This document shows, piece by piece, positions 16,745 to 27,546 of a DNA stretch of 29,683 nucleotides. The stretch is from a virus. Each line of letters begins with the position of its first letter. The first letter of the stretch is position 1. The position numbers were made by a program, and so were the translations under genes. The notes under the pieces are model-generated. The model saw nothing but the letters and a program-made list of their open reading frames with translations, made no database searches and was not told the DNA's origin. The stretch covers positions 1-29,683 of IMG/VR virus record IMGVR_UViG_3300025098_000196, one strand, 5' to 3'.

Positions 16745-16780
16745 TTGCAAAAGTATTAATAATTTTATAAGATTATCCCA
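16745..16780 (+). promoter_or_regulatory. Promoter of RHH gene with operator half-site over the start codon
   Basis: TTGCAA (16745-16750) and TAAGAT (16768-16773) are 17 bases apart. The expected transcript start falls on the A of the ATG at 16780, and no ribosome site is present, so the mRNA is probably leaderless. ATTATCCCA (16772-16780) is one half of the operator repeated through the window and runs into the start codon, as expected for self-regulation. Confidence 0.55.
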
Positions 16781-16980
16781 TGAATACCGCAAAATATAAG
16801 TCGGTTGCAGTCCGATTAGAAAGTTATAAAAAAGCTGCGCCTATGGCGAAAGAAAGATATATGTCCATGGGATCGTTTATTCGTTATTTAATTGATAATG
16901 AATATGAGAGAATCAATGGCGTTACGCCCAAACCGAATGGAGCCCACCATGAATCCCGAGTTGAAGAAAGCCATCAGTGA
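16780..16980 (+). CDS. Ribbon-helix-helix (CopG/Arc-like) DNA-binding protein, candidate repressor
   Basis: Residues 6-44 match the RHH fold. A short strand YKSVAVRL (6-13) would enter the DNA major groove as a dimer, helix A covers 15-27, a turn contains MSMG, and helix B is SFIRYLIDNEYERI (32-45). The SxxIRxLI pattern is typical of CopG/Arc-type repressors and antitoxins. A flexible polar tail (46-66) follows. No HTH protein is visible elsewhere in the window, so this is the best local candidate for the regulator that reads ATTATCYCA-N6-TGRGATAAT. A half-site overlaps its start. The mRNA appears leaderless, as in lambda cI made from PRM. The next gene overlaps by 32 bases and is in another frame; it could be a partner protein. 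Confidence 0.72.
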   Translation: MNTAKYKSVAVRLESYKKAAPMAKERYMSMGSFIRYLIDNEYERINGVTPKPNGAHHESRVEESHQ

Positions 16981-17119
16981 TCTAATCACCTACGCTCGAT
17001 ATGATATCGGCGAGAACTTAGAAGACTCAATTAAAGTTATTGAAGGATGGTTAACTGAAAAAAAAGTACAAATTAATGATCATGACCCCAAATTTTTTAT
17101 AGAAGAAAAAGAGTTTTAA
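16949..17119 (+). CDS. 56 aa small protein coupled to RHH regulator
   Basis: ATG 16949 has a GGAG site six bases upstream. An upstream in-frame start at 16892 would overlap the RHH gene much further and has no site. The product is acidic and helical (NPELKKAISDLITYARYDIG onward) with a mixed-charge tail. It is unrecognised. Overlap with the RHH gene suggests cotranslation, so it could be a cofactor or, less likely, the toxin of an RHH antitoxin pair. No toxin motif is seen. Confidence 0.5.
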   Translation: MNPELKKAISDLITYARYDIGENLEDSIKVIEGWLTEKKVQINDHDPKFFIEEKEF

Positions 17120-17125
17120 AAGTTT

Positions 17126-17247
17126 GGATAGCTCACTCCTTACTTTATCCCTCCCACAAGGCACCGTTGTTCGAGCTATCCCAAGTCTAGGTATCCTTTC
17201 CTCCGTATTGCATTTTCCTAGACGAGTCAAGACTGACCAACGGTGCC
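17126..17247 (+). ncRNA. Pseudoknotted 5' leader over the start of the nuclease gene
   Basis: Three perfect helices can form. A is GGATAGCTC (17126-17134) with GAGCTATCC (17173-17181). B is GGCACCGTTG (17160-17169) with CAACGGTGCC (17238-17247). C is GTCTAGG (17185-17191) with CCTAGAC (17217-17223). A and B cross, giving an H-type pseudoknot with three-base linkers, and C sits inside the large loop. The GTG start of the next gene (17243) lies in the 3' strand of helix B, so the fold would hide it. This is the architecture of a translational switch or autoregulated leader. Not matched to a known family by eye. Confidence 0.6.
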
Positions 17248-17602
17248 ATTACTAGAACCTCGACATAAATTCGGTAGGAAAGTAGAGCGAATGATTACGC
17301 AGTTCTTGGAAGACTTAGATCCGAACTATGTCGTCTATACAAGCTCCACGGAACTCGGGCCAATTGATCTTGTTGTTGTGAATATTGAAACAGGAAAATC
17401 GCTTTTTGTTGATTGTAAGGGAACCAAGAGTAAGGGAGATAGACGTCATATGCCTCCTAAAATCACTAATAGAGAAAAATGGAAACATCTTAATCGATGG
17501 TTTGTTTTAATGAATGAGCGAGATGAGATCCATATTCGCAGTCATAAATACCTAAAAAACCCCGACCGAATAATTAAAGAATTCAAAAACGCGCTAAAAT
17601 AA
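17243..17602 (+). CDS. PD-(D/E)XK-type nuclease-like protein
   Basis: The 119-residue protein has the core of a small PD-(D/E)XK nuclease. Helix 1 has Glu15 (GRKVERMITQFL), then TELGPIDLVV with Asp42, a strand, and SLFVDCKG with Asp57-Cys-Lys59. A second helix (NREKWKHLNRW, 76-86) follows. Asp replaces the more common Glu in the ExK half. This is the size of Holliday-junction resolvases, HNH-free restriction-like enzymes and VRR-NUC proteins; which one cannot be told. The likely start is the GTG at 17243, inside a pseudoknot stem and without a ribosome site. No in-frame ATG lies before Met17, after Glu15. Confidence 0.65.
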   Translation: MPLLEPRHKFGRKVERMITQFLEDLDPNYVVYTSSTELGPIDLVVVNIETGKSLFVDCKGTKSKGDRRHMPPKITNREKWKHLNRWFVLMNERDEIHIRSHKYLKNPDRIIKEFKNALK

Positions 17603-17616
17603 GTTATATTGTGCGT

Positions 17617-18165
17617 ATGGTAGCACTTAATGTTCTTCGTGGCGTAGCCTCTTTAGTTCCCGCTTTAGGGGGAGCGACGTATATGGGATCAGAAAAACCC
17701 GAAGGTATTGAAGATGTTTTTAAAGCCGTAACAGGAACCTCGGGTATATCTCGAGGACTCGAAGGCATTATGTCTTTAAAAGACAAAAAGTCTGGAAAAA
17801 TAATTCCGTTTCAAAAACAAGAAAAAGATGAAGAAGAAGATCCGAACAGAGCTCCCGATCCCGATAGTTTACCAGACATGGTAAATTTAGATGAAGAACG
17901 AGAAAAAGAAAAAAATAAAATTTCTATTTTTGCAGACTCTTACGATGGAAAGTTAATGGAGTCTGTTTTTAGATATGTAGTTAAAGCAGGAATTTATGAT
18001 ACACGAGACGCAATGTTAGGTGTTATGAACACACCTATGGAACAGTTAGAAGATGTTTTAAAAAAGGCAGATCCTTATTATTTGAAACCCGATAACATCA
18101 TGACTTTAGATGAGTTACAAAAAATTTATGACCGTGACACAAACGAAAAAATTATTAAAGATTAA
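17617..18165 (+). CDS. 182 aa acidic protein of unknown function, probably leaderless
   Basis: ATG 17617 is preferred. TTCAAA (17582-17587), a 17-base spacer and TATATT (17605-17610) would start the transcript on that ATG. A GTG at 17611 is the other candidate; neither has a ribosome site. The N-terminus is small and hydrophobic (NVLRGVASLVPALGGATYMG), then an acidic disordered middle (EKDEEEDPNRAPDPDSLPD, about 73-91) and a helical C-terminal domain. No family recognised; the layout resembles a phage structural or scaffold-like protein. It ends convergently with the - strand operon, overlapping by four bases. Confidence 0.55.
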   Translation: MVALNVLRGVASLVPALGGATYMGSEKPEGIEDVFKAVTGTSGISRGLEGIMSLKDKKSGKIIPFQKQEKDEEEDPNRAPDPDSLPDMVNLDEEREKEKNKISIFADSYDGKLMESVFRYVVKAGIYDTRDAMLGVMNTPMEQLEDVLKKADPYYLKPDNIMTLDELQKIYDRDTNEKIIKD

Positions 18166-18356
18166 TTCTCTTGCGACTTAATTAAATAATTCAGATACCA
18201 TTGCGCTTTCTTTAAGTCTTCAATGCCATTCTTTTTTCGCCACCGTGAAATGTATTTGACGACGTTACCTTCAAAGTAATCTAATTTGTATTCACGGATA
18301 AAATCCGCGACTTCTATTTTGCCACGGTAGTAATTGGGGTTAATCTTGTCCTTCAT
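18162..18356 (-). CDS. DUF3310 family protein
   Basis: The 64 residues match the DUF3310 family, common in phages of many hosts: INPNYYRGKIEVADFIREYK followed by LDYFEGNVVKYISRWRKK and GIEDLKKAQWYLNYLI. Its function is not established; it has been annotated as nucleotide-kinase-like. ATG 18356 has an AAAGGA site six bases before it and overlaps the upstream zinc-ribbon gene by 17 bases. It is the last gene of the - strand operon starting at 19044. Confidence 0.85.
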   Translation of the reverse strand: MKDKINPNYYRGKIEVADFIREYKLDYFEGNVVKYISRWRKKNGIEDLKKAQWYLNYLIKSQEN

Positions 18357-18501
18357 CTTTTTCCTTTGGATAATATACTTCAACGAAGCTCTCACATTTG
18401 GGACAACTTAAATTTGTCACGATCAGATACTCTTCACTCTCTTCGTCGATGTCGTGATCGCCGCCCCAAATTAATTCATGATTACAGTGCCAACAGTTCA
18501 T
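18340..18501 (-). CDS. 53 aa zinc-ribbon-like phage protein
   Basis: The protein begins MNCWHCNHELIWGGDHDID and contains a second CPKC pair (SCPKCESFVEVYYP). Two CxxC knuckles about 30 residues apart form a zinc ribbon, and this small family recurs in tailed phages of proteobacteria. Its role is unknown. ATG 18501 overlaps the preceding stop as ATGA, so it is coupled within the five-gene - strand operon. The gene is short but the motif pattern makes it convincing. Confidence 0.8.
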   Translation of the reverse strand: MNCWHCNHELIWGGDHDIDEESEEYLIVTNLSCPKCESFVEVYYPKEKDEGQD

Positions 18502-18689
18502 CCGCCGCCTTCCCACATCTCATGGCCCTCGTCGGGATTGTCATTTTTATTTTTCTTCGACTCAATCCATATCTGTTCATTGCGCCAAATGTATTGATAC
18601 TGTTCGCCGTACTTATTGACGAAATCTTTTTCTGTCATGGTCTTGGCATCTTCTTCCATGTCCATGAAAAACGCTTTTACTTTTCCCAT
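18498..18689 (-). CDS. 63 aa acidic small protein
   Basis: Unrecognised 63-residue protein with an acidic helical first half (FFMDMEEDAKTMTEKDFVNK) and an aromatic segment YGEQYQYIWRNEQIWIE, then a polar tail ending in EGGG. Its ATG shares a base with the stop of the upstream gene, and its stop forms ATGA with the zinc-ribbon gene start. It is real by operon context; function unknown. Confidence 0.6.
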   Translation of the reverse strand: MGKVKAFFMDMEEDAKTMTEKDFVNKYGEQYQYIWRNEQIWIESKKNKNDNPDEGHEMWEGGG

Positions 18690-18934
18690 TACGCACTCTT
18701 CCTTTCAAAATGATACTTTCGCGGTTTTGTTCCTTTTGATAAAAAATATTCATACGCTTCACCGATCCCTCGTCGTAGGGCCTCGGTGGATTGATCGTGC
18801 GCCGATCTTTTTTCGGCGGTGTCTCTAAGACCGTCGTCTTTGTATTGATGCAGAACGGTACTTAAATACTGTAACGTTTTATAATTTAATTTGATCTCGT
18901 ATTGTTTGCCATTTCTACCGTATCGATTATTCAT
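18689..18934 (-). CDS. 81 aa small protein
   Basis: The start at 18934 forms an ATGA overlap with the upstream stop and has a GGAAG site five bases away. A longer reading from 18946 has no such site. The product is basic and helical with YKTLQYLSTVLHQYKDDGLRD in the middle and many charged residues. No family recognised. Third-from-end in size, it is part of the coupled - strand operon. Confidence 0.6.
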   Translation of the reverse strand: MNNRYGRNGKQYEIKLNYKTLQYLSTVLHQYKDDGLRDTAEKRSAHDQSTEALRRGIGEAYEYFLSKGTKPRKYHFERKSA

Positions 18935-19044
18935 CGTTTCTTCCATTTTTTTATAATCATTTCATCTGTAGAGTCATCAAGGTAAATTACCCATCCCCCT
19001 ATTTCAACGTAACAACACTCGTCTGTTCTAATATCTATTTTCAT
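18931..19044 (-). CDS. 37 aa small protein, first gene of - strand operon
   Basis: ATG 19044 follows an AAAGGA site and a good promoter. The short product (MKIDIRTDECCYVEIGGWVI start) is beta-rich with a paired Cys and ends in a basic helix. An ATG a few bases upstream is followed at once by a stop codon. Coupling by ATGA to the next gene supports it as real. Confidence 0.55.
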   Translation of the reverse strand: MKIDIRTDECCYVEIGGWVIYLDDSTDEMIIKKWKKR

Positions 19045-19058
19045 TTCATGATCCTTTC

Positions 19059-19095
19059 TTAATGGGATTCTAACACACCAGTCGTGCAAAATCAA
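19059..19095 (-). promoter_or_regulatory. Promoter of - strand operon with operator half-site
   Basis: Read on the - strand: TTGATT (19095-19090), 17 bases, TAGAAT (19072-19067). ATCCCATTAA (19068-19059), the left half of the repeated operator, covers the expected transcript start near 19060. The ribosome site AAAGGA and ATG 19044 follow. Confidence 0.65.
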
Positions 19096-19103
19096 CAATG
19101 GAA

Positions 19104-19118
19104 CACGGATCACGGGTC
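19104..19118. repeat. 15-bp repeat CACGGATCACGGGTC, copy 1
   Basis: Identical to 20715-20729, and its core CGGATCACGG recurs at 21537-21546. Here it lies just upstream of the - strand promoter (19095-19067) and before the + strand gene at 19150. It contains a direct ACGG-ATC-ACGG repeat, as expected for a protein-binding site. Confidence 0.6.
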
Positions 19119-19149
19119 GGATAAAAATGTCACATGAAGGAGAACCATT

Positions 19150-19326
19150 ATGTTTAATTTAACCAAACGATCCATGAACCATTTCTTAAATTTTTTTAAG
19201 AACGATGACAAAGAAGATACAATCAAAGAATTCTGTCAGTCAGAATACAAGAAAGATTGGTATGCCGCTTACATGACATACAAGCAAGAAGGTAAATTTC
19301 CTAATTTTCACAGAAGAACTCTGTAA
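19150..19326 (+). CDS. 58 aa small phage protein
   Basis: Preceded by an AAGGAG site and encoding 58 residues. The first half is basic and Phe-rich, the second half, IKEFCQSEYKKDWYAAYMTY followed by KQEGKFPNFHRRTL, looks like a conserved helical motif. I recall similar ends in marine phage small proteins but cannot name a family. It diverges from the - strand operon and ends before a terminator region shared with the AIPR gene. Confidence 0.6.
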   Translation: MFNLTKRSMNHFLNFFKNDDKEDTIKEFCQSEYKKDWYAAYMTYKQEGKFPNFHRRTL

Positions 19327-19339
19327 TTACAGGGTATAA

Positions 19340-19410
19340 AGACACTAGGGGGCATATGAACACCCCCTCAGCGGTCTTAAAATAGGTTTTTTAAGCTATT
19401 TTTTTTATTT
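19340..19410. terminator. Bidirectional terminator region between convergent genes
   Basis: Two hairpins lie between the convergent stops at 19326 and 19391. The first pairs AAGAC and GGGGG on the left with CCCCC and GTCTT on the right. The second is AAAATAG (19379-19385) with CTATTTT (19396-19402), followed by a T-rich run, giving a good + strand terminator that overlaps the last codons of the AIPR gene. Confidence 0.6.
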
Positions 19411-20617
19411 TACTCTCAGATTGGTAGAATTCTCTTTCCAATAGGTTATACATTGTTTCCCATGTACTCGATACTTTACCTAGAGCATTGACGTCATTTA
19501 GTTCCTTATAGATCCTATCCATTTTAGAGAACATTTTTTCACTTACTTGAGTTGCGAAACTTAGAACGTCCGAAAATGGAATTCTCCATGTTATGTCTTG
19601 ACCTTCGTTCGCGCCTACAAAAACACGGAACGCGGCTAAGACGGGGAACAAGAATGCATCAGCAACATCGTGGCTGATAATAATATCTTGAGTTATTAGT
19701 TTGAACTCTTGATCATTACGCGCCGCTTTTACATAATTTGAGGATCTTCTATTTTTTAAGACCTCATTTGTATGAGCGTTTAAACGTAAGTGATCCATTA
19801 ACCTTACAATGTCGGGAAGAATATTTGCTAATGCATGATAATCTTCTTCTCTACTCATAAAAGATTTAACAACGGACGCCTTACTAGAATACGCTTTGTT
19901 CGGATGTTTATCAGAACCGTGAATATAGTGGTTCGCATTAAACATCGTCATTAGTTGTAATAGACGAGTAACTTCTATTTCGCCGTCACCGTATTGACGA
20001 TAACTAACTTTCTTCCCCCATTTTAAATGATCTAAAACATTTTTAATAAAATCAAATTTATTATCTAGTTCTAGTAAAGAAGTTTGAGTTACGCTTGCAT
20101 GGGTATTCAATCCTTCAGAAATACTTGGTATTGTTTTAGGATCTACTCCCACTCGCAATTCGACTTTAACATACTGATTGCGCGGCAGGTCTAAACCTTT
20201 CTCTTTCAATTCTTTGATTGCTCGAGAAAGAACGGTAAAAGTTGTTCCACCATTTAAGATACCATGACGTTTTAATTCGTCTTCATCTACGACAATATTT
20301 AAAACATTATCATTGAGTTCGTCGACATATTTGACGTTGATAATAATACCACTGTTCTTTAAATGAAATTCAGAAGACTCTGAAAAATATTCTTCTCGAA
20401 TATCTTTCATCACTGATTTATTTTTAGGTAAGTTTTCGTGATCACGAGGATTGGCGGGTTTAATCGGCATATCTTCTATTCTCGGTATGAGATTATTAAT
20501 GTCAAAAAAACAATTGTAGTAAGTGATTGTTTGAGATCCGTGTTTCTTTGGATTAAAGAATGGATCGGTCGTTTTGCGTACTATTTCGGCACGCACTTTA
20601 TAGTGTTTAAGAGCCAT
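19391..20617 (-). CDS. AIPR family protein (abortive infection phage resistance)
   Basis: The 408-residue protein fits the AIPR family. FHLKNSGIIIN (84-94) corresponds to the family's F-x-NNG-I core. HGILNGGTTFTVL (118-130) corresponds to the IVNGxQT motif, and LNTHASVTQTSLLELDNKF (170-188) to the N-rich segment before the second domain. AIPR proteins occur in bacterial defence islands and abortive infection systems; their biochemical activity is not settled. In a phage it may block superinfection by rivals. It has its own promoter with the TGYGACA box, an AAAGGA site, and a terminator, so it is controlled apart from its neighbours. Confidence 0.75.
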   Translation of the reverse strand: MALKHYKVRAEIVRKTTDPFFNPKKHGSQTITYYNCFFDINNLIPRIEDMPIKPANPRDHENLPKNKSVMKDIREEYFSESSEFHLKNSGIIINVKYVDELNDNVLNIVVDEDELKRHGILNGGTTFTVLSRAIKELKEKGLDLPRNQYVKVELRVGVDPKTIPSISEGLNTHASVTQTSLLELDNKFDFIKNVLDHLKWGKKVSYRQYGDGEIEVTRLLQLMTMFNANHYIHGSDKHPNKAYSSKASVVKSFMSREEDYHALANILPDIVRLMDHLRLNAHTNEVLKNRRSSNYVKAARNDQEFKLITQDIIISHDVADAFLFPVLAAFRVFVGANEGQDITWRIPFSDVLSFATQVSEKMFSKMDRIYKELNDVNALGKVSSTWETMYNLLEREFYQSESKIKKIA

Positions 20618-20670
20618 AGGGCTTCCTTTCTTTTATGTCTTAGCGCACTGCTAAAACGTTGATACACTGT

Positions 20671-20716
20671 TAATGTATAGACCCGCGCGATAATTTCAAT
20701 GGTTGAACTTGTCGCA
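20671..20716 (-). promoter_or_regulatory. AIPR promoter with upstream TGYGACA box
   Basis: On the - strand: box TGCGACAAGTTCAACCA (20716-20700) lies directly against TTGAAA (20699-20694), then TACATT at 16 bases (20677-20672). The spacer begins TTATC like the operator promoters but the rest of the operator is absent. A 50-base leader with a short TAGC/GCTA hairpin leads to the start codon. Confidence 0.55.
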
Positions 20717-20729
20717 CGGATCACGGGTC
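20715..20729. repeat. 15-bp repeat CACGGATCACGGGTC, copy 2
   Basis: Exact copy of 19104-19118. It overlaps by two bases the TGYGACA box of the AIPR promoter and reaches the stop codon of the upstream - strand gene. In both copies the element lies immediately upstream of a - strand promoter. Confidence 0.6.
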
Positions 20730-20886
20730 ATTTACTTAGATAATCGAACATGTTTATGACGATTGTCGGCTTTCCGTTCGATTTAGAGTAAAGCTCATTA
20801 ATTAACATCGCAATCTGGCCCAATTCGTTAAAGGTCAACGACTCTAGTTCGCTTGCAATATCGTGTTGTAAGGCTTTTTGTTTCAT
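20728..20886 (-). CDS. 52 aa small protein
   Basis: ATG 20886 forms an ATGA overlap with the upstream stop and has a GGAG site eight bases away, so the longer reading from 20916 is unlikely. The product is helical, MKQKALQHDIASELESLTFN onward, ending in a strand-like PTIVINMFDYLSK. Unrecognised; second gene of a two-gene operon from 21140. Confidence 0.55.
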   Translation of the reverse strand: MKQKALQHDIASELESLTFNELGQIAMLINELYSKSNGKPTIVINMFDYLSK

Positions 20887-21140
20887 TTCAATATCTCCTC
20901 GGGTTTGTAGCCACACTCATTGATATAATAACTATCGCAGATCTCATCTAAGTCCACGCCGTGTTTTTCTTTGGCGTATTCTAGTAGACCATGGTGCGAG
21001 TCAATCATCCGAAGAACACGATCTAATATTTTAATATGATCCTCGTCTTCGAGATGTTGTTTTACTTCTTCAATGTCTTTTTCCACCGCGTCTAATTTTT
21101 CGTACGCCGTGGAGAATCTTATAACGGCTTTTGTTTCCAT
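20883..21140 (-). CDS. 85 aa helical acidic protein
   Basis: Unrecognised 85-residue protein made of charged helices (TAYEKLDAVEKDIEEVKQHL, then RVLRMIDSHHGLLEYAKEKH), with two Cys near the end. An AAAGGA site lies nine bases before the ATG. It is driven by a composite promoter carrying both the TGYGNCA box and the full operator, so it should respond to the same regulators as the structured RNAs. Confidence 0.6.
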   Translation of the reverse strand: METKAVIRFSTAYEKLDAVEKDIEEVKQHLEDEDHIKILDRVLRMIDSHHGLLEYAKEKHGVDLDEICDSYYINECGYKPEEILK

Positions 21141-21164
21141 ACTGTATCCTTTCGTTAAAGTACC

Positions 21165-21209
21165 ATTATCTCATATTAATGGGATAAAGTATCGGTACAT
21201 TCTGACGCA
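21165..21209 (-). promoter_or_regulatory. Composite promoter/operator of the 21140 operon
   Basis: On the - strand: box TGCGTCA-GAA-TGTACCG (21209-21193), a weak -35 GATACT (21193-21188), 17 bases, then -10 GATAAT (21170-21165). The 24-bp operator ATTATCTCA-N6-TGGGATAAA (+ strand 21165-21188) fills the spacer and covers the -10 box. Confidence 0.65.
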
Positions 21210-21291
21210 GGCACGAAAATCTATTTTCCCTCCCGAGGTTGATAGATTTTCAGAATAAAGTTTTATTCCTATAAAACTTTACGGGGTTCTT

Positions 21292-21339
21292 CACACCATT
21301 GCACACCTTTACACATGTGAAGGGGTGTGTAGAGGTGTG
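21292..21339. repeat. 48-bp symmetric CACACC/GGTGTG array
   Basis: CACACC at 21292-21297 and 21302-21307, the palindrome CACATGTG at 21312-21319, then GGTGTG at 21324-21329 and 21334-21339. All are exactly mirrored about 21315.5 and spaced ten bases apart, one helical turn. A protein dimer or tetramer could bind one face of the DNA. As RNA the same sequence folds into a long hairpin. Confidence 0.65.
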
Positions 21340-21346
21340 TAGTGGG

Positions 21347-21392
21347 TGCGACCGTTTTGACCATTGACTTTGTCTCAAGAATGTGGGACTAT
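21347..21392 (+). promoter_or_regulatory. Composite promoter of the 21398 ncRNA
   Basis: Box TGCGACC-GTT-TTGACCA (21347-21363) abuts TTGACT (21364-21369). A 17-base spacer and GACTAT (21387-21392) follow. The spacer and -10 hold a diverged operator, TTGTCTCA-N6-TGGGACTAT, with the same geometry as the 23345 and 24327 sites. Confidence 0.6.
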
Positions 21393-21397
21393 GTACT

Positions 21398-21531
21398 TAT
21401 ATTGGTGGCTGGTCTGCTGAAAAATTATATGCAGAAACCAAGATGTAGCCAAAAGGACGCAAAGCCTCGGGAACCAGACTTGGACGCCAATATACCCCAA
21501 CGCTCTTCATTGTAATAATTAGAGCGTTGGG
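21398..21531 (+). ncRNA. Probable structured ncRNA with terminal hairpin
   Basis: The predicted transcript starts at about 21398-21399, at the first base of a 10-bp closing helix: TATATTGGTG (21398-21407) with CGCCAATATA (21485-21494). Inside are hairpin TCTGC/GCAGA (21413-21417 with 21431-21435) and two crossing helices, CTGG/CCAG (21409-21412 with 21474-21477) and CCAAG/CTTGG (21438-21442 with 21479-21483), which suggest a pseudoknot. GGACGCAAAGCC at 21455-21466 equals a conserved core string of c-di-GMP-I aptamers as I remember it, but the flanks do not fit. An 11-bp hairpin CCCAACGCTCT/AGAGCGTTGGG (21496-21531) then ends it, without a U run. No open reading frame is present, so this is probably a free-standing RNA. 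Confidence 0.6.
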
Positions 21532-21536
21532 TTACG

Positions 21537-21546
21537 CGGATCACGG
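21537..21546. repeat. Partial third copy of the CGGATCACGG repeat
   Basis: CGGATCACGG matches the core of the 15-bp repeat at 19104 and 20715, six bases after the ncRNA's terminal hairpin. Flanks differ. Confidence 0.45.
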
Positions 21547-21601
21547 TACATGGAACTTTTAAAAAGTTTTTTTAGAAATGAAAACCAAATTTATTTCAAA
21601 A

Positions 21602-21705
21602 ATGACGTAACTCACGTAACTTTTACAATAAGTCATTGAAAACACTACCTTTAATGGTTACTTTTTACCCTTTTTTAGACGTAACCATGACGTAACTCAC
21701 GTAAC
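21602..21705. repeat. ACGTAAC iteron cluster upstream of terS
   Basis: ATGACGTAACTCACGTAAC occurs twice exactly (21602-21620 and 21687-21705). ACGTAAC itself occurs five times (21605, 21614, 21679, 21690, 21699). An inverted GGTTAC lies at 21656. Within each long copy the units are nine bases apart. A tract of nearly pure A/T (21751-21794) follows. This is the look of an iteron origin with a melting region, or of a terminase pac/cos recognition site beside terS. Confidence 0.7.
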
Positions 21706-21833
21706 CTCACTCCCATACAATCCCATCTCTATCTGAGGTTTCTGTACTGAATTGAAAATATTATATATATATAGTGAATTTAAAATATATATAGGACTTT
21801 TGAAAAGGTTTAAAATAGTGTATAAAACTAAAA

Positions 21834-22334
21834 ATGCCTAGAAATAGATCAGGATTGTCGAATAGACAACAAGCTTTTGTAGATATCTTTTGTAAGTCTA
21901 ACGGTCGGTTAACTCCGACTGAATGTGCAAGAGAAGCGGGGTATTCTGGAAAGTCCGCTACCACCGCGGCCTGTAATTTAAGGAATCCAAGATATTATCC
22001 TAAGGTTGTGGAAGCAATTGAGACGAAGCAGAGAGAATATGCTGAAGCTTCTAAATTGGACGTGACAAAGCATATGAGAGAAATGGCACGGTTGAGAGAT
22101 ATGGCGGCTGAGAACGGTCAGTATGCCGCGGCTATAAATGCTGAGTATCGTAGAGGTCAAGCCGTTGGATTATATATTGATCGTAAAGAAGTAGTAACGG
22201 GAAGTTTAGATAAGATGTCTAGACCCGAACTCGAAGCTAAATTGAAAGAGCTCCGAGAAGGTCTAGTTGTCAATGGTGAGTACGAAGTTATTGAAGATAA
22301 TACAACAGAAGCAGAAATAATATCAGAGCGATAA
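21834..22334 (+). CDS. terS: Terminase small subunit
   Basis: The 166-residue protein starts LSNRQQAFVDIFCKSNGRLT and PTECAREAGYSG, the HTH DNA-binding region of Terminase_2-type small subunits (residues 8-55). A helical oligomerisation part follows (EAIETKQREYAEASKLDVTK and AAAINAEYRRGQAVGLYIDR), then an acidic tail that would contact the large subunit. It recognises phage DNA and starts packaging. TATAAA at 21821-21826 places the transcript start at the ATG, and no ribosome site is visible, so it may be leaderless. Unusually, the large subunit gene is 5.5 kb downstream with accessory genes between. The iteron cluster just upstream may be its target. Confidence 0.9.
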   Translation: MPRNRSGLSNRQQAFVDIFCKSNGRLTPTECAREAGYSGKSATTAACNLRNPRYYPKVVEAIETKQREYAEASKLDVTKHMREMARLRDMAAENGQYAAAINAEYRRGQAVGLYIDRKEVVTGSLDKMSRPELEAKLKELREGLVVNGEYEVIEDNTTEAEIISER

Positions 22335-22377
22335 TTCCCGCAAATCGAAATAAAAATATAAACATGAAAATCCTTTC

Positions 22378-22413
22378 TTGACAAAGGATATTATCTCATT
22401 ATAATGGGATGTC
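22378..22413 (+). promoter_or_regulatory. Strong promoter with operator over the -10 box
   Basis: TTGACA (22378-22383), 16 bases, TATAAT (22400-22405) is the best consensus promoter of the window. The operator ATTATCTCA-N6-TGGGATGTC (22390-22413) covers the -10 box and transcript start. ATCCTTT/AAAGGAT (22370-22389) forms a hairpin around the -35. Confidence 0.75.
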
Positions 22414-22427
22414 AAGAAAGTAATAAA

Positions 22428-22619
22428 ATGAAATCACGTAAACGTGTGATCGACTTAGATCACGAGTTGGATTTTCTCAATCGATTTACATGGAGATACC
22501 AACAACAAATTAAATCTTTCGAACAGTCTGAACGACTAGATAGATTTATGCAAAAGCGGTACAATTATTTGTACACCAAACGAGCCTTGGACAAACAGAG
22601 GTTCTTAATTAACTTTTAG
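22428..22619 (+). CDS. 63 aa basic small protein
   Basis: The start is ATG 22428. An in-frame ATG at 22404 lies within the -10 box and cannot be in the mRNA. The transcript start near 22412 leaves a short leader with an AAGAAAG ribosome site. The product is basic and aromatic (DHELDFLNRFTWRYQQQIKS), helical, and may bind nucleic acid. Not recognised; first gene of a four-gene operon. Confidence 0.6.
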   Translation: MKSRKRVIDLDHELDFLNRFTWRYQQQIKSFEQSERLDRFMQKRYNYLYTKRALDKQRFLINF

Positions 22620-22631
22620 AAGGGAGTTATC

Positions 22632-22796
22632 ATGATAAGTAAAGTAACAATACAAGAGGTAGGTAGGTTTGAGAAAACACGACAAAAAGCTTATGAAGAT
22701 TTGAGGCGTTTTAATATTAAACTTTTAGATAAGTTAGAAGAGAAAGGCTTTGATAAATATTCCTTTCCTTTTGTCATCACTGAAAGGTCAAGATAA
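22632..22796 (+). CDS. 54 aa small protein
   Basis: Preceded by an AAGGGAG site and coupled by TAATG to the next gene. The product is helical and basic (EVGRFEKTRQKAYEDLRRFN) with a hydrophobic end SFPFVITERSR. Function unknown. Clear ribosome site and tight packing support it. Confidence 0.6.
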   Translation: MISKVTIQEVGRFEKTRQKAYEDLRRFNIKLLDKLEEKGFDKYSFPFVITERSR

Positions 22797-23062
22797 TGGG
22801 TAGGGGCACGGCAAAAGACATTGTTGATAATAGTTATTCAATAGACGACTTACATAGAGCATTACATTTTCATTTGAATACAAACATGTACCCACCGTTA
22901 CCACAACCTGTACAAGATAACATCACAAAGTTGTTCCATAAATTCTGGACGTCAAGTTTTTCAGAGGAACGATTTATCAAGGTATGGGAAAGAACAGTAG
23001 GCAAGAGAGACGCATTACATAAATATTCATTTGACGAATTTTTAACAACAGAAAGATTATGA
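22796..23062 (+). CDS. 88 aa small protein
   Basis: Shares one base with the preceding stop. The 88 residues are mostly helical, with SIDDLHRALHFHLNTNMYPP and LFHKFWTSSFSEERFIKVWE, so compact and rich in His, Trp and Phe. No family recognised. Member of the operator-controlled operon from 22412. Confidence 0.6.
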   Translation: MGRGTAKDIVDNSYSIDDLHRALHFHLNTNMYPPLPQPVQDNITKLFHKFWTSSFSEERFIKVWERTVGKRDALHKYSFDEFLTTERL

Positions 23063-23075
23063 AGGGGGTGAATAA

Positions 23076-23321
23076 ATGTCGAAAGTAAATTCATATTATC
23101 AAGACGCAAAAGAAAATATGGAATACGATTTAGAACGCATTGAAGACTTTTTAAAGAAATGCATGATCTTTGGAGATCATAAAAGCATTAATGCAAATTC
23201 TCTAAATCACACCGACGTTCAATTTCTATGTTTTAATTTTGCTAAAGAAATTATTAATATGGCAAGAACAAAGCGTGAGGAATTAACTGAAGAGATCAAG
23301 TCTTTAACAAAAGAAGACTAG
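23076..23321 (+). CDS. 81 aa coiled-coil-like small protein
   Basis: An AAGGGGG site precedes the ATG. The product is all-helical: NMEYDLERIEDFLKKCMIFG, a short polar turn, then FLCFNFAKEIINMARTKREE. Function unknown. It ends immediately before the TGCGACA box of the next promoter, so it closes the operon. Confidence 0.6.
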   Translation: MSKVNSYYQDAKENMEYDLERIEDFLKKCMIFGDHKSINANSLNHTDVQFLCFNFAKEIINMARTKREELTEEIKSLTKED

Positions 23322-23322
23322 G

Positions 23323-23368
23323 TGCGACAGTTATGACAGTTTACATTATCCCGTTAATTTGGGATAAT
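23323..23368 (+). promoter_or_regulatory. Composite promoter with the most symmetric operator
   Basis: Box TGCGACA-GTT-ATGACAG (23323-23339) abuts TTTACA (23340-23345). GATAAT (23363-23368) follows at 17 bases. The operator ATTATCCCG-N6-TGGGATAAT (23345-23368) has near-perfect nine-base arms and fills the spacer and -10. Confidence 0.75.
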
Positions 23369-23374
23369 GTTTTT

Positions 23375-23604
23375 ATTCGTGGCAATCGATGACGGTTGAT
23401 TGTCGGCTGACTGAACAAGCCTTTGACAGAGGGCTAAGGTATATCAAAGTCTTTTAAATGCACTAATGTGTGAGTTTGGACTGAGGTAGTTGTTAGTAGT
23501 TCCATATCTAAACTGCAATAGAGCGATGTGGTCTGTTAACGAAAGCTTGGGGGTATGAGTCACATCAAATCCCCCGCCGTTACGAATACATAGAGAGGTT
23601 TATT
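23375..23604 (+). ncRNA. 230-base structured leader RNA
   Basis: The predicted 5' end forms a closing helix with the 3' end: ATTCGT-GGC (23375-23383) with GCC-gtt-ACGAAT (23576-23587). Inside, GATGTG (23525-23530) pairs CACATC (23561-23566) while GGGGG (23549-23553) pairs CCCCC (23571-23575). These cross, giving a pseudoknot near the 3' end. Hairpins CAATC/GATTG (23383-23402) and AGCC/GGCT near 23419-23435 precede it. GGCTAAGGTA (23432-23441) also occurs in the 24355 RNA. It precedes a 59 aa gene with a clear ribosome site, and may be a riboregulatory leader, a processed ncRNA, or both. Confidence 0.6.
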
Positions 23605-23784
23605 ATGAATAAGTTTAAAGTATTTGGATTTGAAAAAATTTACTATGAACGTGAAATTGAAGCAGAAAATGAAGAGGATGCTCGTAGTAAAGCACTTGCT
23701 GATGTTCAAGAAAATCATTGGACTTTTTGGGACGATCAAGAAGGTGATGTAGAAATATGTGACCCTGTTTGGCTGAAGAGATGA
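23605..23784 (+). CDS. 59 aa small protein behind the 23375 RNA
   Basis: ATG 23605 has a GAGAGG site. The product is acidic, starting MNKFKVFGFEKIYYEREIEA with an EAENEEDARSKALADV helix, then NHWTFWDDQEGDVEICDP. This is a small alpha/beta fold of the kind with a strand-helix-strand pattern. No family named. Its stop forms ATGA with the next gene. Confidence 0.6.
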   Translation: MNKFKVFGFEKIYYEREIEAENEEDARSKALADVQENHWTFWDDQEGDVEICDPVWLKR

Positions 23785-23954
23785 GTGAAATAAAAATAGA
23801 TTTAGATTTTGTCAAAGCAGATAAAGAGTGTACAGAGTGTGATCATATTAATGATTATGTTTGTTTTGATCATGAGGAAATACAAGTAAGAGATAAATTT
23901 TCCGACGCTAAATATAAAGGACTTGGTGTTTGGTATAGAGAAGTAGATGAGTGA
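23781..23954 (+). CDS. 57 aa small protein with Cys cluster
   Basis: ATG 23781 overlaps the upstream stop (ATGA); an in-frame TTG at 23769 is less likely. ECTECDHINDYVCFDH has three Cys and two His that could bind zinc. The rest is acidic. Function unknown. It overlaps the nuclease gene by eight bases, so all three genes after the structured leader are coupled. Confidence 0.55.
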   Translation: MSEIKIDLDFVKADKECTECDHINDYVCFDHEEIQVRDKFSDAKYKGLGVWYREVDE

Positions 23955-24318
23955 AAGTAATTTCTATAAACAATTAAGAACCAATACGCCCGAAGTGCTG
24001 TGGACTAGAATTGAAAATAGACACGGTGGTGGAATTCCAGATTTGAACGGTCTATACGACGGTCGTGATTTTTGGGTAGAGTTAAAAATTACAACGACCA
24101 ATAAGGTGCGGTTGTCCCCTACTCAAATTTCATGGCATTACAATAGAGGATTATACGACGGTAGAAGTTTCATCCTTGTAAAGAATACGAAGACTAAAGA
24201 AATTAAATTATTTAATAATACGAACGTGAGAAAATTAGCGTTAGAAGGATTTCAATCAAATAGTTTAATTACTTTAAAAGCACCATACGATTGGTTATCC
24301 TTGGTGCGTCAGTTTTGA
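23947..24318 (+). CDS. VRR-NUC/PD-(D/E)XK nuclease, Holliday-junction-resolvase-like
   Basis: The 123 residues show the core of the VRR-NUC group: RIENRHGGGIPDLNGLYDGR with Pro31-Asp32, then FWVELKITT with Glu45-Leu-Lys47, then LSPTQISW with Gln60. The spacing of D, ExK and Q is that of small PD-(D/E)XK nucleases acting on structured or flap DNA. In phages these resolve recombination intermediates before packaging or act as endonucleases. It is the second such protein in the window (the other at 17243), and both lie downstream of a structured leader RNA. Its stop is followed at once by the next composite promoter, whose box lies inside the gene's last codons. Confidence 0.8.
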   Translation: MSESNFYKQLRTNTPEVLWTRIENRHGGGIPDLNGLYDGRDFWVELKITTTNKVRLSPTQISWHYNRGLYDGRSFILVKNTKTKEIKLFNNTNVRKLALEGFQSNSLITLKAPYDWLSLVRQF

Positions 24319-24350
24319 TCATTGCATTTATCCCATTAATTTGAGATGAT
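24305..24350 (+). promoter_or_regulatory. Composite promoter of the 24355 RNA
   Basis: Box TGCGTCA-GTT-TTGATCA (24305-24321) abuts TTGCAT (24322-24327). GATGAT (24345-24350) follows at 17 bases. The operator TTTATCCCA-N6-TGAGATGAT spans 24327-24350. The box is within the last codons of the nuclease gene. Confidence 0.7.
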
Positions 24351-24354
24351 GTAT

Positions 24355-24631
24355 TTCGATCAAGGTATGTGTCTCCCGATCCACACTGCTTGGTTAGTAA
24401 AGAAATCAAGAACAACAGGCGGGTCATCACTTAATCCTTGTTACAAGTGGAGTATGTGCAAGGTTCCTTGATCGAACAGGGACAAACAGGCTAAGCGTGA
24501 TTGAGTTTGAGTTTCATATCCTCAAATAATAGACACGTCTATGGGACTGCCCTGTGGCTAAGGTAGTGCCAAGGTAAAAAGAAGCGAACCTTGTGTTTAA
24601 ACCTAAAACTACCTACAAGATTGGAGTAATT
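24355..24631 (+). ncRNA. About 275-base structured leader RNA
   Basis: An 11-bp perfect helix joins the 5' end TTCGATCAAGG (24355-24365) to CCTTGATCGAA (24466-24476). The second half holds ACAGGG/CCCTGT (24476-24481 with 24550-24555), TTTGAG/CTCAAA (24506-24511 with 24521-24526), ATAGAC/GTCTAT (24529-24542), and CAAGGT/ACCTTG (24570-24575 with 24588-24593). GGCTAAGGTA (24556-24565) is shared with the 23375 RNA. No long reading frame is present. A 56 aa gene follows. The density of exact helices is far above what plain sequence gives, so it is probably a functional RNA; family unknown. Confidence 0.6.
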
Positions 24632-24802
24632 ATGAGTAATGATAAATTTGAAGAATTAAGAGAAAGTGTAAAAGACGATTTAGAAGGAATGTCAATGAAT
24701 GATTTCTCTAACTTAGTAGAAAAATATGATCTTGGTATAGAAACCATAGACAGTATATTTTATCAAGTTGTCGAAAAGATAGTTGAGGAAAAAAGTAATT
24801 AA
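24632..24802 (+). CDS. 56 aa small acidic protein
   Basis: ATG 24632 follows a TTGGAG site by seven bases. A GTG at 24593 lies within a hairpin of the leader and lacks a site. The product is acidic and helical (DDLEGMSMNDFSNLVEKYDL). Unrecognised. Confidence 0.55.
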   Translation: MSNDKFEELRESVKDDLEGMSMNDFSNLVEKYDLGIETIDSIFYQVVEKIVEEKSN

Positions 24803-24825
24803 AAATCTCAACGTGAAATTAATAG

Positions 24826-24854
24826 TTGACATATTCCCATTAATTTGAGACACT
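24826..24854 (+). promoter_or_regulatory. Operator-promoter of DUF932 gene
   Basis: Consensus TTGACA (24826-24831), 17 bases, GACACT (24849-24854). The operator half TTCCCA-N6-TGAGA fills the spacer (24831-24854). No TGYGACA box lies upstream. Confidence 0.65.
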
Positions 24855-24882
24855 AAGATAATCAAAAAAGAAAGAGGTAATC

Positions 24883-25929
24883 ATGAAAATTGAAAAAAAT
24901 TATGAATGGCAATCTATACTTGATTTGTCGGGTAAAGGCTTACAACAATTCAACGCCGTTGATCAAAATCTCAACGCAACACAATTGCTAAATAATGCGG
25001 GACTTGATTGGACTGTAACAATGAAGCCTGTATTTTTCCAAAACTCTAACAATACATTTGAAAACAGTAATAAGTTCTTTTCACTTGTAAGAAAAAAAGG
25101 CAATGAGGAAGACGTCCTTGTTAGCGGTTTAACTAATTCTTATCACGTTAACCAAAATGAGAATATGGCAAAATTAGGTGATCACTTTTCAAGAATTGCG
25201 GGTGTAAAGTTTGAGCATGCATTCGACTACGACGGCGGGAAGCGTGTTACCTTGTTAGCAAAAACAAACGGCGGTTTTAATATTGGTGATGATGTAGTCA
25301 ACAATTATTTAATGTTAAATACTAACCACACGGGGCGCGACGTCAATTCAATCAATACAACAAATATTGATATTTGGTGCTCTAATACTTTTATGCAAGC
25401 TTTAAAAGATAAAGATCAATTTTTTATCAAGCTTTCTCACCGTGTAGAATACAACGATCAAGTTGAGTCTATGGTTATTAATAAAGTTAATGAGGCTTTA
25501 AAGTTCAATGAGAAATACAAAGAGCAGGCGCAAGCGTTAGACACTAAACAATTAAGTGAGCGTGAAATGCTTAATTACTTTTTAATGGTTTATTCACCAA
25601 AGGCTTTAAACTCTTTTGAAGCTTCAAAGGGTGATTATAAAGCTATGTCTTCACTTGAAGCGCCTAACTTAACGCAAGTTAAACGTTGTTACGGTGTTTG
25701 GCATGATGTGATCGAAAGTAACGGCAAAATGTTCAAGCTCCAAAATACAGGTAATCACGCAAGAAAAGACACCGCTTGGAAAGCGTTCAACTGCGTAACT
25801 TATAATGAAGATCATCTGAGGGGCGGGCGTAACTCAGCAGACAACCGTTTAAAAAATACTTTTGTTAATAACGGTATTGACAATATTAAAAATACCGCAA
25901 TGACCGAAGCTTTACGGCTTGTAGCTTAA
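24883..25929 (+). CDS. DUF932 family phage/plasmid-like protein
   Basis: The 348-residue protein fits DUF932 (phage/plasmid-like protein family): NAGLDWTVTMKPVFF near 38-52, LVSGLTNSYHVNQNENMAKL in the first third, YDGGKRVTLLAKTNGGFNIG near 115-134, and CSNTFMQALKDKD near 166-178. The family is widespread on phages and plasmids with no settled role; it is often linked to replication or defence evasion. A GAGG site precedes the ATG. It is followed by a GC-rich terminator, so with its own operator-promoter it is a single-gene unit. Confidence 0.8.
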   Translation: MKIEKNYEWQSILDLSGKGLQQFNAVDQNLNATQLLNNAGLDWTVTMKPVFFQNSNNTFENSNKFFSLVRKKGNEEDVLVSGLTNSYHVNQNENMAKLGDHFSRIAGVKFEHAFDYDGGKRVTLLAKTNGGFNIGDDVVNNYLMLNTNHTGRDVNSINTTNIDIWCSNTFMQALKDKDQFFIKLSHRVEYNDQVESMVINKVNEALKFNEKYKEQAQALDTKQLSEREMLNYFLMVYSPKALNSFEASKGDYKAMSSLEAPNLTQVKRCYGVWHDVIESNGKMFKLQNTGNHARKDTAWKAFNCVTYNEDHLRGGRNSADNRLKNTFVNNGIDNIKNTAMTEALRLVA

Positions 25930-25935
25930 TCAAAA

Positions 25936-25963
25936 AACGGCGGGGGTTAATTCTCCCGCCGTT
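25936..25963 (+). terminator. Rho-independent terminator after DUF932
   Basis: AACGGCGGG (25936-25944) pairs CCCGCCGTT (25955-25963), nine bases with a ten-base loop, followed by AAATTCTTCTTT. The tail overlaps the next promoter's -35. Confidence 0.75.
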
Positions 25964-25972
25964 AAATTCTTC

Positions 25973-26001
25973 TTTACATTTTCCCATTAATTTGAGATAC
26001 T
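25973..26001 (+). promoter_or_regulatory. Operator-promoter of 26032 gene
   Basis: TTTACA (25973-25978), 17 bases, GATACT (25996-26001), with operator ATTTTCCCA-N6-TGAGATACT (25978-26001) filling spacer and -10. Confidence 0.7.
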
Positions 26002-26031
26002 TATCAAAGATCAAAAAAGAAAGTAGGTATC

Positions 26032-26286
26032 ATGACAAATTTAAATCCACGTGATTATATTATTGATAATTCAAAGTTTGATGAATTAGGCATTGACGGC
26101 ATGCAACGCCTTCAAATGTCTACCGCGTTAAACGGGTTGAAGCTTGAACTATCAACGGGCATGAAATTGACCGCAAAGGCTAATGTCCTTGAAGTTATAA
26201 GGCGGACCATTGTCGATTTGCCTAAAACAAAAAAGACCGCTTTTCGTGGTTTGGTAGAGTTCGGATTTTATAAAAAGCGGGTTTAA
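26032..26286 (+). CDS. 84 aa small basic protein
   Basis: Unrecognised 84-residue protein with an N-terminal polar stretch, a helix GMQRLQMSTALNGLKLELST, and a basic end RGLVEFGFYKKRV. An AGG site precedes the ATG. It is a single-gene unit between two operator-promoters, 43 bases before the next gene, and it uses G+C-richer codons than the replication genes. Confidence 0.6.
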   Translation: MTNLNPRDYIIDNSKFDELGIDGMQRLQMSTALNGLKLELSTGMKLTAKANVLEVIRRTIVDLPKTKKTAFRGLVEFGFYKKRV

Positions 26287-26293
26287 TTCCCGC

Positions 26294-26322
26294 TTTCCTT
26301 TTTCCCATAAATATGAGATAAT
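26294..26322 (+). promoter_or_regulatory. Operator-promoter giving a leaderless transcript
   Basis: TTTCCT (26294-26299), 17 bases, GATAAT (26317-26322). Operator TTTTTCCCA-N6-TGAGATAAT spans 26299-26322. The expected transcript start is at 26329, the A of the next gene's ATG. Confidence 0.65.
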
Positions 26323-26328
26323 CTTTTC

Positions 26329-27021
26329 ATGATCAAATTAATTAACAATTCAACAAATAGAAAAACGGGCGCTATTGCTACGACGTACAGAGCGGGCGGT
26401 CGCGATGTTTTTTCTACATGTCCTAATACTTGCGCATTAAAGCCAATTGATAAACACGGGTCAAACAAGATTGATCAAGTTTATCTAAAGGCTTTAAAGC
26501 GTGCAGTAGTTCGGGGCGGTGTTTCGTGGACTTATTCGCATTTTAAAGATTTACCCGCAAATAAAGAAAATGAAACAGTAATCAATAAATCTACTGACAC
26601 AATCAAAGAAGCGCTTGAAAGCTTCAACGGTGGGAAAGAGACGGTTTATACCGCGCCCGCTACAATGACAGATAAAGTTGATAATATTGACGGCGTTAAG
26701 CTTGTGCGTTGTCCCGCTGAGTATAATGAAAAAATCAATTGCCGTAATTGCGGGAGTGGTAAACCTTTATGCGCTAGGCTGAACCGTAGTTATATAATTA
26801 AATTCGTAGCACATGGTAATCAAAAGAAAAAAATTGGCGTCCAAGATTTCAAAGGCGGTTGCTATGCTAATTCGGGGCATACGCGTTTCGCGTGGCAAGA
26901 TACTCAAAAGCGCAACAAGTCAAGCTATTCAGATGCGGAACGTTTAGCGGGCTGGGTGAAAACTTTACCGCATGGTACGTTTATCCGACATCATATCGCG
27001 GGGGACATTGGCAATGAATAA
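26329..27021 (+). CDS. DUF7227-like phage protein with rearranged domain order
   Basis: The 230-residue protein has all the hallmarks of a Cys-rich phage family (DUF7227 type): NRKTG (10-14), CPNTCALK (31-38), WTYSHF (67-72), CPAEYNEKINCRNCGSG (128-144), FVAHGNQKKK (159-168), GGCYANSGH (176-184) and IRHHIAGD (219-226). In relatives I remember, the GCYA-to-RHNxAGD part comes directly after the CPxTCPLK motif and before the TYTH part. Here it is the last 55 residues. The pieces are complete, so this looks like a segment transposition within the gene. Biochemical function is unknown; the Cys pattern suggests metal or Fe-S binding. No ribosome site is present and the promoter points to a leaderless mRNA. 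Confidence 0.7.
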   Translation: MIKLINNSTNRKTGAIATTYRAGGRDVFSTCPNTCALKPIDKHGSNKIDQVYLKALKRAVVRGGVSWTYSHFKDLPANKENETVINKSTDTIKEALESFNGGKETVYTAPATMTDKVDNIDGVKLVRCPAEYNEKINCRNCGSGKPLCARLNRSYIIKFVAHGNQKKKIGVQDFKGGCYANSGHTRFAWQDTQKRNKSSYSDAERLAGWVKTLPHGTFIRHHIAGDIGNE

Positions 27022-27085
27022 TTCATTATTATTATTAACTATTTCGTTGACGTTTTATATATTCGCAATATTTGGGGGGCTTTGA
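27014..27085 (+). CDS. 23 aa single-membrane-segment peptide
   Basis: ATG 27014 overlaps the end of the preceding gene and has GGGGGA upstream. The peptide is one hydrophobic segment, MNNSLLLLTISLTFYIFAIF plus three residues, long enough to cross a membrane. Phage single-segment peptides include lysis regulators and holin-like products. It may also be chance. Confidence 0.35.
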   Translation: MNNSLLLLTISLTFYIFAIFGGL

Positions 27086-27157
27086 TTGTTATTTCTATTC
27101 CTTAATCCTTTGGGCGCCGTTCTTTTGGCGCTCTTAATCCTAACATTTATAATATAA
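27086..27157 (+). CDS. Possible second 23 aa membrane peptide (TTG start)
   Basis: TTG 27086 follows directly on the preceding TGA. The frame encodes hydrophobic residues almost throughout (LFLFLNPLGAVLLALLILTF). It overlaps a GGGCGCC/GGCGCTC hairpin, so the apparent peptide may only reflect that structure. No ribosome site beyond GGGGGG at 27074. Confidence 0.2.
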   Translation: MLFLFLNPLGAVLLALLILTFII

Positions 27158-27192
27158 ACCTAAATTATTACGATCAGATAAGACGGGAAAAA

Positions 27193-27223
27193 CGGGGCTA
27201 TTTTCAAAGCTTAATAAGCCCCG
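27193..27223 (+). terminator. Hairpin, weak terminator
   Basis: CGGGGCT (27193-27199) pairs AGCCCCG (27217-27223) around a 17-base A+T-rich loop. No U run follows (CCCCCTTGTCC), so termination is uncertain; it separates the 26329 unit from the next promoter. Confidence 0.4.
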
Positions 27224-27270
27224 CCCCCTTGTCCATTGTCCGCGCTAAACTTTCAGAAAACATTTGCTTA

Positions 27271-27294
27271 ATTGTCCCATTAATATATTATTAT
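27271..27294 (+). promoter_or_regulatory. Diverged operator and -10 box before 27298 gene
   Basis: ATTGTCCCA-N6 followed by TATTATTAT replaces the usual right half. TATTAT (27289-27294) lies at the expected -10 position, and a second half-site ATTATCTCA (27290-27298) runs into the ATG. The -35 is poor. Confidence 0.45.
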
Positions 27295-27297
27295 CTC

Positions 27298-27546
27298 ATG
27301 ATCAATAATAGTAATATTCAGCCGTTGAAAATTCTTAACGTTGCTGATTTCTTAAATGGTGAAATTACCATTAAGAAAGTGTTTCCCGTTTCCGCGGTGG
27401 AATTATTCATTAAACACCGCAACGCGAACGGCGGAGCTATTCGCAAAGGCGGGGACATTATCCGCAAGGCGCTTAAAGGCGTCGCGGTTCCCGTTCCGCG
27501 GTACGCCGTCAATGACTTCAAAAAACTGGTAAGGCGCACGGTCTAG
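27298..27546 (+). CDS. 82 aa basic protein, probably leaderless
   Basis: ATG 27298 is the first in-frame ATG after the -10 box; an earlier TTG reading from 27229 would cross the promoter. The product has ILNVADFLNGEITIKKVFPV (12-31) then a strongly basic region NANGGAIRKGGDIIRKALKG (47-66), and looks like a small nucleic-acid-binding domain. No family recognised. It has more GC-rich codons than most genes here and is followed by a strong terminator, so it is a single-gene unit. Confidence 0.6.
   Translation: MINNSNIQPLKILNVADFLNGEITIKKVFPVSAVELFIKHRNANGGAIRKGGDIIRKALKGVAVPVPRYAVNDFKKLVRRTV

Follow-up and report, generated by a model that had tools for sequence, protein, structure and literature searches.

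The 29,683-bp IMG/VR fragment IMGVR_UViG_3300025098_000196 (hereafter the window, meaning this stretch over its whole length) comes from a tailed phage, whose PolA and large-terminase (TerL) proteins are closest to those of the HTVC023P-type pelagiphages HTVC023P, HTVC027P and 023Pt_psg01 (50-57% for PolA and 60-68% for TerL), with DSL-LC04 as a further close match. The window and these phages share an order of primase, helicase, PolA, small genes, the small-terminase gene terS, an accessory island and terL, and both halves of this layout, primase-helicase-PolA and terS-accessory-terL, are homologous. A relative, G001 (45.9 kb), overlaps the window at both ends, so that the two jointly span the gene complement of the lineage. 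HTVC027P is described as lytic (PMC12753301); no integrase is found among the annotated window proteins, nor any Rfam family or tRNA in the window. A 24-bp palindrome, ATTATCYCA-N6-TGRGATAAT, recurs in the intergenic DNA that leads up to terL. We consider it likely to be the operator of a dedicated, phage-encoded and autoregulated repressor, the best candidate for which is a 66-aa ribbon-helix-helix (RHH; Arc-like) protein encoded at 16780-16980 on the plus strand.

Palindromic sites, promoters and genes of the island

With up to three mismatches allowed, the palindrome has six matches in the window, as against 0.05 expected from shuffles. Scored in bits with a two-fold 24-bp matrix, seven sites are strong (18.7-29.6 bits). 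The highest-scoring, at 21165-21188 on the minus strand (29.6 bits), lies upstream of an 85-aa gene (20883-21140). The others are on the plus strand, at 22390-22413 (20.2 bits), 23345-23368 (27.8 bits; conserved in relatives), 24327-24350 (24.9 bits; ahead of a small gene, with 240 untranslated nucleotides in between), 24831-24854 (18.7 bits, with 29.3 for its L106 ortholog; ahead of a 348-aa DUF932 protein at 24883-25929, plus strand, Pfam PF06067, 2.8e-18), 25978-26001 (25.2 bits; ahead of the gene 26032-26286) and 26299-26322 (27.0 bits; ahead of a 230-aa DUF7227 protein at 26329-27021, plus strand, Pfam PF23872, 6.1e-29). Four more are weak when taken alone: 19048-19071 (minus strand, 13.6 bits), upstream of a 37-aa open reading frame (ORF; 18931-19044, minus strand); 21369-21392 (plus strand, 15.7 bits), which is diverged and precedes a structured RNA; 27271-27294 (plus strand, 12.4 bits), likewise diverged and ahead of a small gene with its ATG at 27298; and 16772-16779 (plus strand, 11.4 bits). 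Because the orthologous positions of the first three score higher in relatives (19.5 bits in L113; 25.6 in L106 and L113, on TTGACA-17-GATACT; and 20.8 in L105, respectively), we uphold these sites. The fourth, ATTATCCC, abuts the ATG of the RHH gene and remains a half-site in every relative of the window lineage, being conserved in L109-L117 with one mismatch in L115 and L116. Of the eleven operators counted in the initial annotation, the seven strong and the three rescued ones thus stand, and 16772 does so only as a conserved half-site. A coding match at 11802 (17.6 bits), within a helicase gene, is taken as chance.

The sites coincide with sigma-70-type promoters almost throughout. That at least six of them lie on TTKACA-17-GATAAT, as had been claimed, was an overstatement: this promoter is exact only at 23345 (TTTACA-17-GATAAT), with looser versions in the same register at 24831 (TTGACA-17-GACACT), 25978 (TTTACA-17-GATACT), 24327, 26299 and 21165 (minus strand), and 22390 has a different register, its perfect promoter match TTGACA-16-TATAAT having the -35 box at 22378 and the -10 box in the centre of the palindrome. 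Start codons are mostly 24-42 bp from the palindrome centre. At 26299 the -10 box GATAAT ends six bases upstream of the DUF7227 start codon, and the mRNA is therefore probably leaderless; the half-site at 16772 likely belongs to a leaderless promoter (TTGCAA...TATAAG) for the RHH gene, and some sites in relatives would also fit leaderless transcripts.

Behind the promoter at 22390 is a group of small genes (starting at 22428, 22632, 22796 and 23076; 22428-23321, plus strand), whose ORFs have orthologs in G001, G002, L105, L106 and L113. The site at 21369 is followed by what is convincingly predicted to be a structured RNA of about 100 nt (21398-21497, plus strand) and then by a strong long hairpin reaching about 21535; the fold of 21395-21535 has a minimum free energy z-score of -4.05, three compensatory base pairs occur in the 21398-21497 RNA between two lineages (against L106, L113 and L114), and 21398-21535 has no Rfam match. 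Relatives L102, L105 and L117 have a different sequence behind the orthologous operator. Between the promoter at 23345 and a 59-aa gene lies a conserved untranslated leader or RNA of about 230 nt (23369-23600, plus strand), with long invariant blocks across relatives (alignments A3 and A6) and single-sequence folds that are not unusual (z = -1.3); for the stretch 24351-24590 the folds are close to chance expectation (z = -1.4 and 0.0). The small accessory genes, DUF932 and DUF7227 are retained as the targets first proposed, but the three structured RNAs listed with them come down to at least one clear case and one conserved leader. Separately, the window encodes at 19391-20617 (minus strand) a phage-borne AIPR-domain protein of the abortive-infection type (PF10592, 2.4e-17; no PADLOC match), and it has three intergenic copies of a short repeat, GGATCACGG (19105, 20715 and 21537); the DSL-LC04 island has a repeat cluster of the GGGCCACGGCCCACGGCCC type.

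Conservation and spread of the network

In a nonredundant set of 21 related contigs (191 kb), with sites counted at 18 bits or more, 76 of 81 sites are noncoding, as against 28% of the DNA, and five shuffled versions of the set gave 0, 1, 0, 0 and 0 sites. The matrix is thus not carried by shuffled or coding sequence, the check that the initial annotation had called for, and its placement of the sites in intergenic DNA is borne out, with 11802 as the one coding match in the window. Its second check, conservation upstream of orthologous genes in relatives, gave the same answer, but the predicted drift of the N6 between conserved arms is not seen at this distance: orthologous sites are 88% identical in arms and N6 alike, with flanks at 56-74%. 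The typical form in relatives is TTGAC-N7..9-TTTATCCCATGTTAATAGGATAAT, often then AGAAAGGA and ATG, and in L108, L106 and L113 the palindrome is recovered by a de novo dyad search with no prior input; three mismatches proved workable in such searches, four too noisy, and counts of perfect 5-mer dyads too strict for most genomes. The 81 sites have 71 candidate genes starting within 75 bp of them, in 48 raw clusters, mostly of small proteins, some spurious and nearly all of no known function; PADLOC gave no matches for the proteins behind sites, and Pfam mostly none.

The network occupies only the stretch that begins with the RHH gene and stops shortly ahead of terL. G001 has six sites, all upstream of its terL, and none of 14 bits or more beyond position 5,106, that is, in its remaining ~40 kb, mostly the virion region. 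The phage-wide regulon of the first description therefore narrows to this region, and its remark that neither the replication operon nor terL directly bears a site is supported. The palindrome recurs in the corresponding island of small-terminase relatives, with up to nine sites per contig; large-terminase relatives at ~70% identity are mostly without it. A search of all IMG/VR with the strict pattern returned 21 stretches, 20 of which carry genes of the HTVC023P-type group, and the last, L289, is the same contig as L196, which encodes a small terminase: the network belongs to the HTVC023P-type pelagiphages. The exact degenerate pattern of the window, when run across IMG/VR, had retrieved, besides close relatives, mainly unrelated chance palindromes, and the motif had to be rebuilt from relatives. 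An apparent site in a bacterial genome (L261/L277) was rejected, the contig in question, from a marine Flavobacteriaceae metagenome-assembled genome (CAJWGK010000046), being a phage contig of the HTVC023P type (PolA 54%) binned with it; it has one full operator at 10840, upstream of a 71-aa gene.

Among the named phages, related sites occur behind TTGAC in HTVC023P, at 7936, 15159 and 16551, and HTVC027P has eight promoters combining TTGAC with a half-site, where 1.15 are expected; they include those at 388, 11576, 17395 and 17718 (both minus strand), 18184, 19224 and 19774. In HTVC027P, half-sites at 17718-17680 (minus strand) stand in direct orientation, AGGATAGTATAGGATAAT, with a 10-bp period, and in 023Pt_psg01 an everted half-site pair lies upstream of the RHH gene. 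More distant phages that share DUF7227 have TATGGGAT adjoining the promoter -10 box (L152 of G005, at record positions 23138, 23733 and 27345), and an RHH gene of their own (MDTEKWKSV...) with a different upstream palindrome. A paper on 80 HTVC023P-type genomes (PMC9599517) makes no mention of a promoter, operator or palindrome.

The candidate regulator and its alternatives

The 66-aa protein is a member of a small family with an N-terminal KYKSV. Some of its homologues match the PHROG 'Arc-like repressor' (best 4e-4), one matches Pfam RHH_10 (0.063), and there is a match to PDB 1x93 (HP0222; 0.013), which we take to be an RHH protein. Among small DNA-binding families it is the only one that the window shares with the long network contigs tested (L166, L172, L173, L192 and L195); beyond terS, terL and a nuclease-like gene, the genes conserved in those contigs reduce to it as such a family. 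A GcrA-like reading of L108:2361-2618 was dropped, as Pfam gave it no support.

In a sister lineage the RHH gene itself bears a full dyad. Its promoter reads, in L166 and L172 for example, CCTTGAC-N11-ATCCCATATATATGGGCA, with a CCCA-N6-TGGG geometry in the dyad ATCCCAT-N4-ATGGG. We judged these promoters by that exact geometry and not by the strict matrix, which gives them at most 9-10 bits because their right arm is TGGGC rather than TGGGA. The exact TTGAC...CCCA-N6-TGGG dyad is present upstream of the RHH gene in eight distinct sister-lineage versions, while others carry variants that differ by one letter, and it would be a classic signature of autoregulation. HTVC027P has a half-site, ATCCTAT, after the -10 box of gp21 (RHH), and in HTVC023P the site at 7936 lies upstream of gp11, with which the run of genes that holds the RHH gene gp13 begins. 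Upstream of the RHH genes in the network-free phages G011, L035, G008 and G010, the dyad is absent. Of the ties between protein and site, this co-variation of the RHH-promoter site with the network is the strongest, and it is circumstantial. We name the RHH protein as the regulator because it is the one such family in all the long network contigs tested and has its own operator in relatives; the latter makes the link firmer than in the initial annotation, whose choice of candidate is upheld.

Several observations weigh against this assignment. Taken alone, the window RHH sequence has no significant Pfam or PHROG match; RHH proteins, of about 45-65 aa, have a short strand ahead of two helices, and its AlphaFold monomer has the helices (7-25 and 30-45) but no modelled strand, and Foldseek with this model returned weak matches only (CdbA, E = 9.9). 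The window gene has the half-site only, and RHH relatives are present in the network-free phages G011 and L035, so the presence of the protein is no predictor of the sites. PADLOC and Pfam reveal no known defence inhibitor among the proteins behind sites, and the 21 contigs are kin, so that their site counts are non-independent events.

The half-site and the network-free relatives would also suit a reading of the sites as operators of another phage protein, for instance an unrecognised small fold encoded elsewhere among the many unannotated small ORFs. We regard this as unlikely, as no other regulator is evident on inspection of the window and G001 (small ORFs not exhaustively searched), and the RHH protein alone is common to all long network contigs tested and comes with its own operator. 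Phages do borrow host operators, and the promoters here are of host type, which would suit a host transcription factor whose operator the phage had copied to sense host state. We give this only a slim chance: 118 genomes of the family of the Pelagibacteraceae genome G015 have 0-3 loose matches each, many of them a single recurrent sequence with the centre ATGATCAT, and the 27 exact matches in GTDB (257 Gb) are scattered over unrelated taxa, near a rough chance estimate. A host regulon is unlikely on these counts, but the 118 genomes may not include the host of the window phage.

A slimmer chance still attaches to the palindrome being part of the promoter, whether as an activator site or as a -10/spacer element read by a phage-modified RNA polymerase. 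Nearly all sites do coincide with a promoter, and TATGGGAT occurs near the -10 box in the more distant G005. However, the best -35 box (17-bp spacer) in the 21-contig set lies mostly at three offsets from the palindrome start, -5 (23 sites), -11 (21) and -14 (13), and in each register the palindrome overlaps the -10 region; two-fold symmetry persists where the -10 box shifts, and near-consensus TTGACA-TATAAT promoters require no activator. A palindrome that persists across changing registers is, by established repression mechanics, what a repressor site overlapping a promoter would look like, and we read it as an operator and not as a promoter element. That the palindromes are DNA or RNA architecture (terminator-like hairpins or packaging, replication or partition sites), a notion helped by the terminator-like score of 23345, the location between the terminase genes and the partition role of RHH proteins such as omega (PMC9499535), is barely credible, since most of them would reach no further than the transcript start, and the sites, present in each cassette, are coupled to promoters and start codons.

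A predicted early circuit and its counterparts

Under the repressor reading, host RNA polymerase would, on phage entry, read the strong near-consensus sigma-70-type promoters of the small accessory genes and the structured RNA. Two dimers of the accumulating RHH protein would then occupy the arms TATCCCA and TGGGATA, which are spaced by about a helical turn, over the -10 region, and would halt initiation at all network promoters and at that of the RHH gene. The predicted outcome is that, in a lytic phage, the island lying between the genes for the polymerase and the large terminase is expressed in an early burst and then shut off in a coordinated way; the island probably serves host takeover or counter-defence. 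In HTVC027P the early genes are all of unknown function and the temporal classes form a mosaic along the genome; RNA-seq assigns gp33 and gp34, which belong to the island, to an additional cluster highly expressed at 6-9 h (PMC12753301), and half-site promoters at 17395 and 17718 (both minus strand) precede them. Their timing fits early expression followed by shut-off, without proving it. A promoter-bound operator network would explain how such scattered genes share timing, and the operator could serve as bait for unknown phage genes, a handle on many of unknown function.

Among described circuits, the nearest is that of SIRV2 and other archaeal rudiviruses, in which Aca8 is proposed to shut off a consensus early regulatory sequence that its own gene carries too (PMC11065993). 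In both, a strong promoter and a shared regulatory sequence precede many small, mostly single, unannotated early genes, a small regulator gene bears the same sequence, and an early burst is followed by shut-off, here as a prediction. Aca8 is a predicted winged helix-turn-helix (HTH) protein acting at archaeal promoters, with a TATA box and a B recognition element, at genome termini; the present candidate is an RHH protein with sigma-70-type promoters in a terS-terL island of a bacterial phage, and has no known defence inhibitor among its targets. Bacterial anti-CRISPR-associated (Aca) repressors (PMC9410906, PMC9410881) are likewise small and autoregulated, with inverted repeats over a strong early promoter, but their known families are HTH proteins governing one acr operon, as opposed to some ten dispersed promoters here. 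The Aca-type placement of the regulator under its targets' operator is found in the sister-lineage RHH promoters, with the half-site only in the window, and the candidate matches RHH rather than HTH models.

With Arc, Mnt and omega the candidate would share a small RHH protein and inverted subsites at a spacing of roughly one helical turn. Omega accepts several subsite orientations, and the direct half-sites of HTVC027P and the everted pair of 023Pt_psg01 suggest a comparably flexible arrangement. The site sequence is unrelated to theirs; Arc and Mnt govern one switch of a temperate phage, and omega governs plasmid genes and partition. Cluster A mycobacteriophage stoperators and P1 C1 operators offer a final parallel, in that many scattered copies would answer to one repressor. 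Stoperators, which occur in temperate phages, lack symmetry and act by terminating elongation (PMC9283540), whereas the present sites are symmetric, lie on promoters and belong to a phage group of which one member is reported to be lytic.

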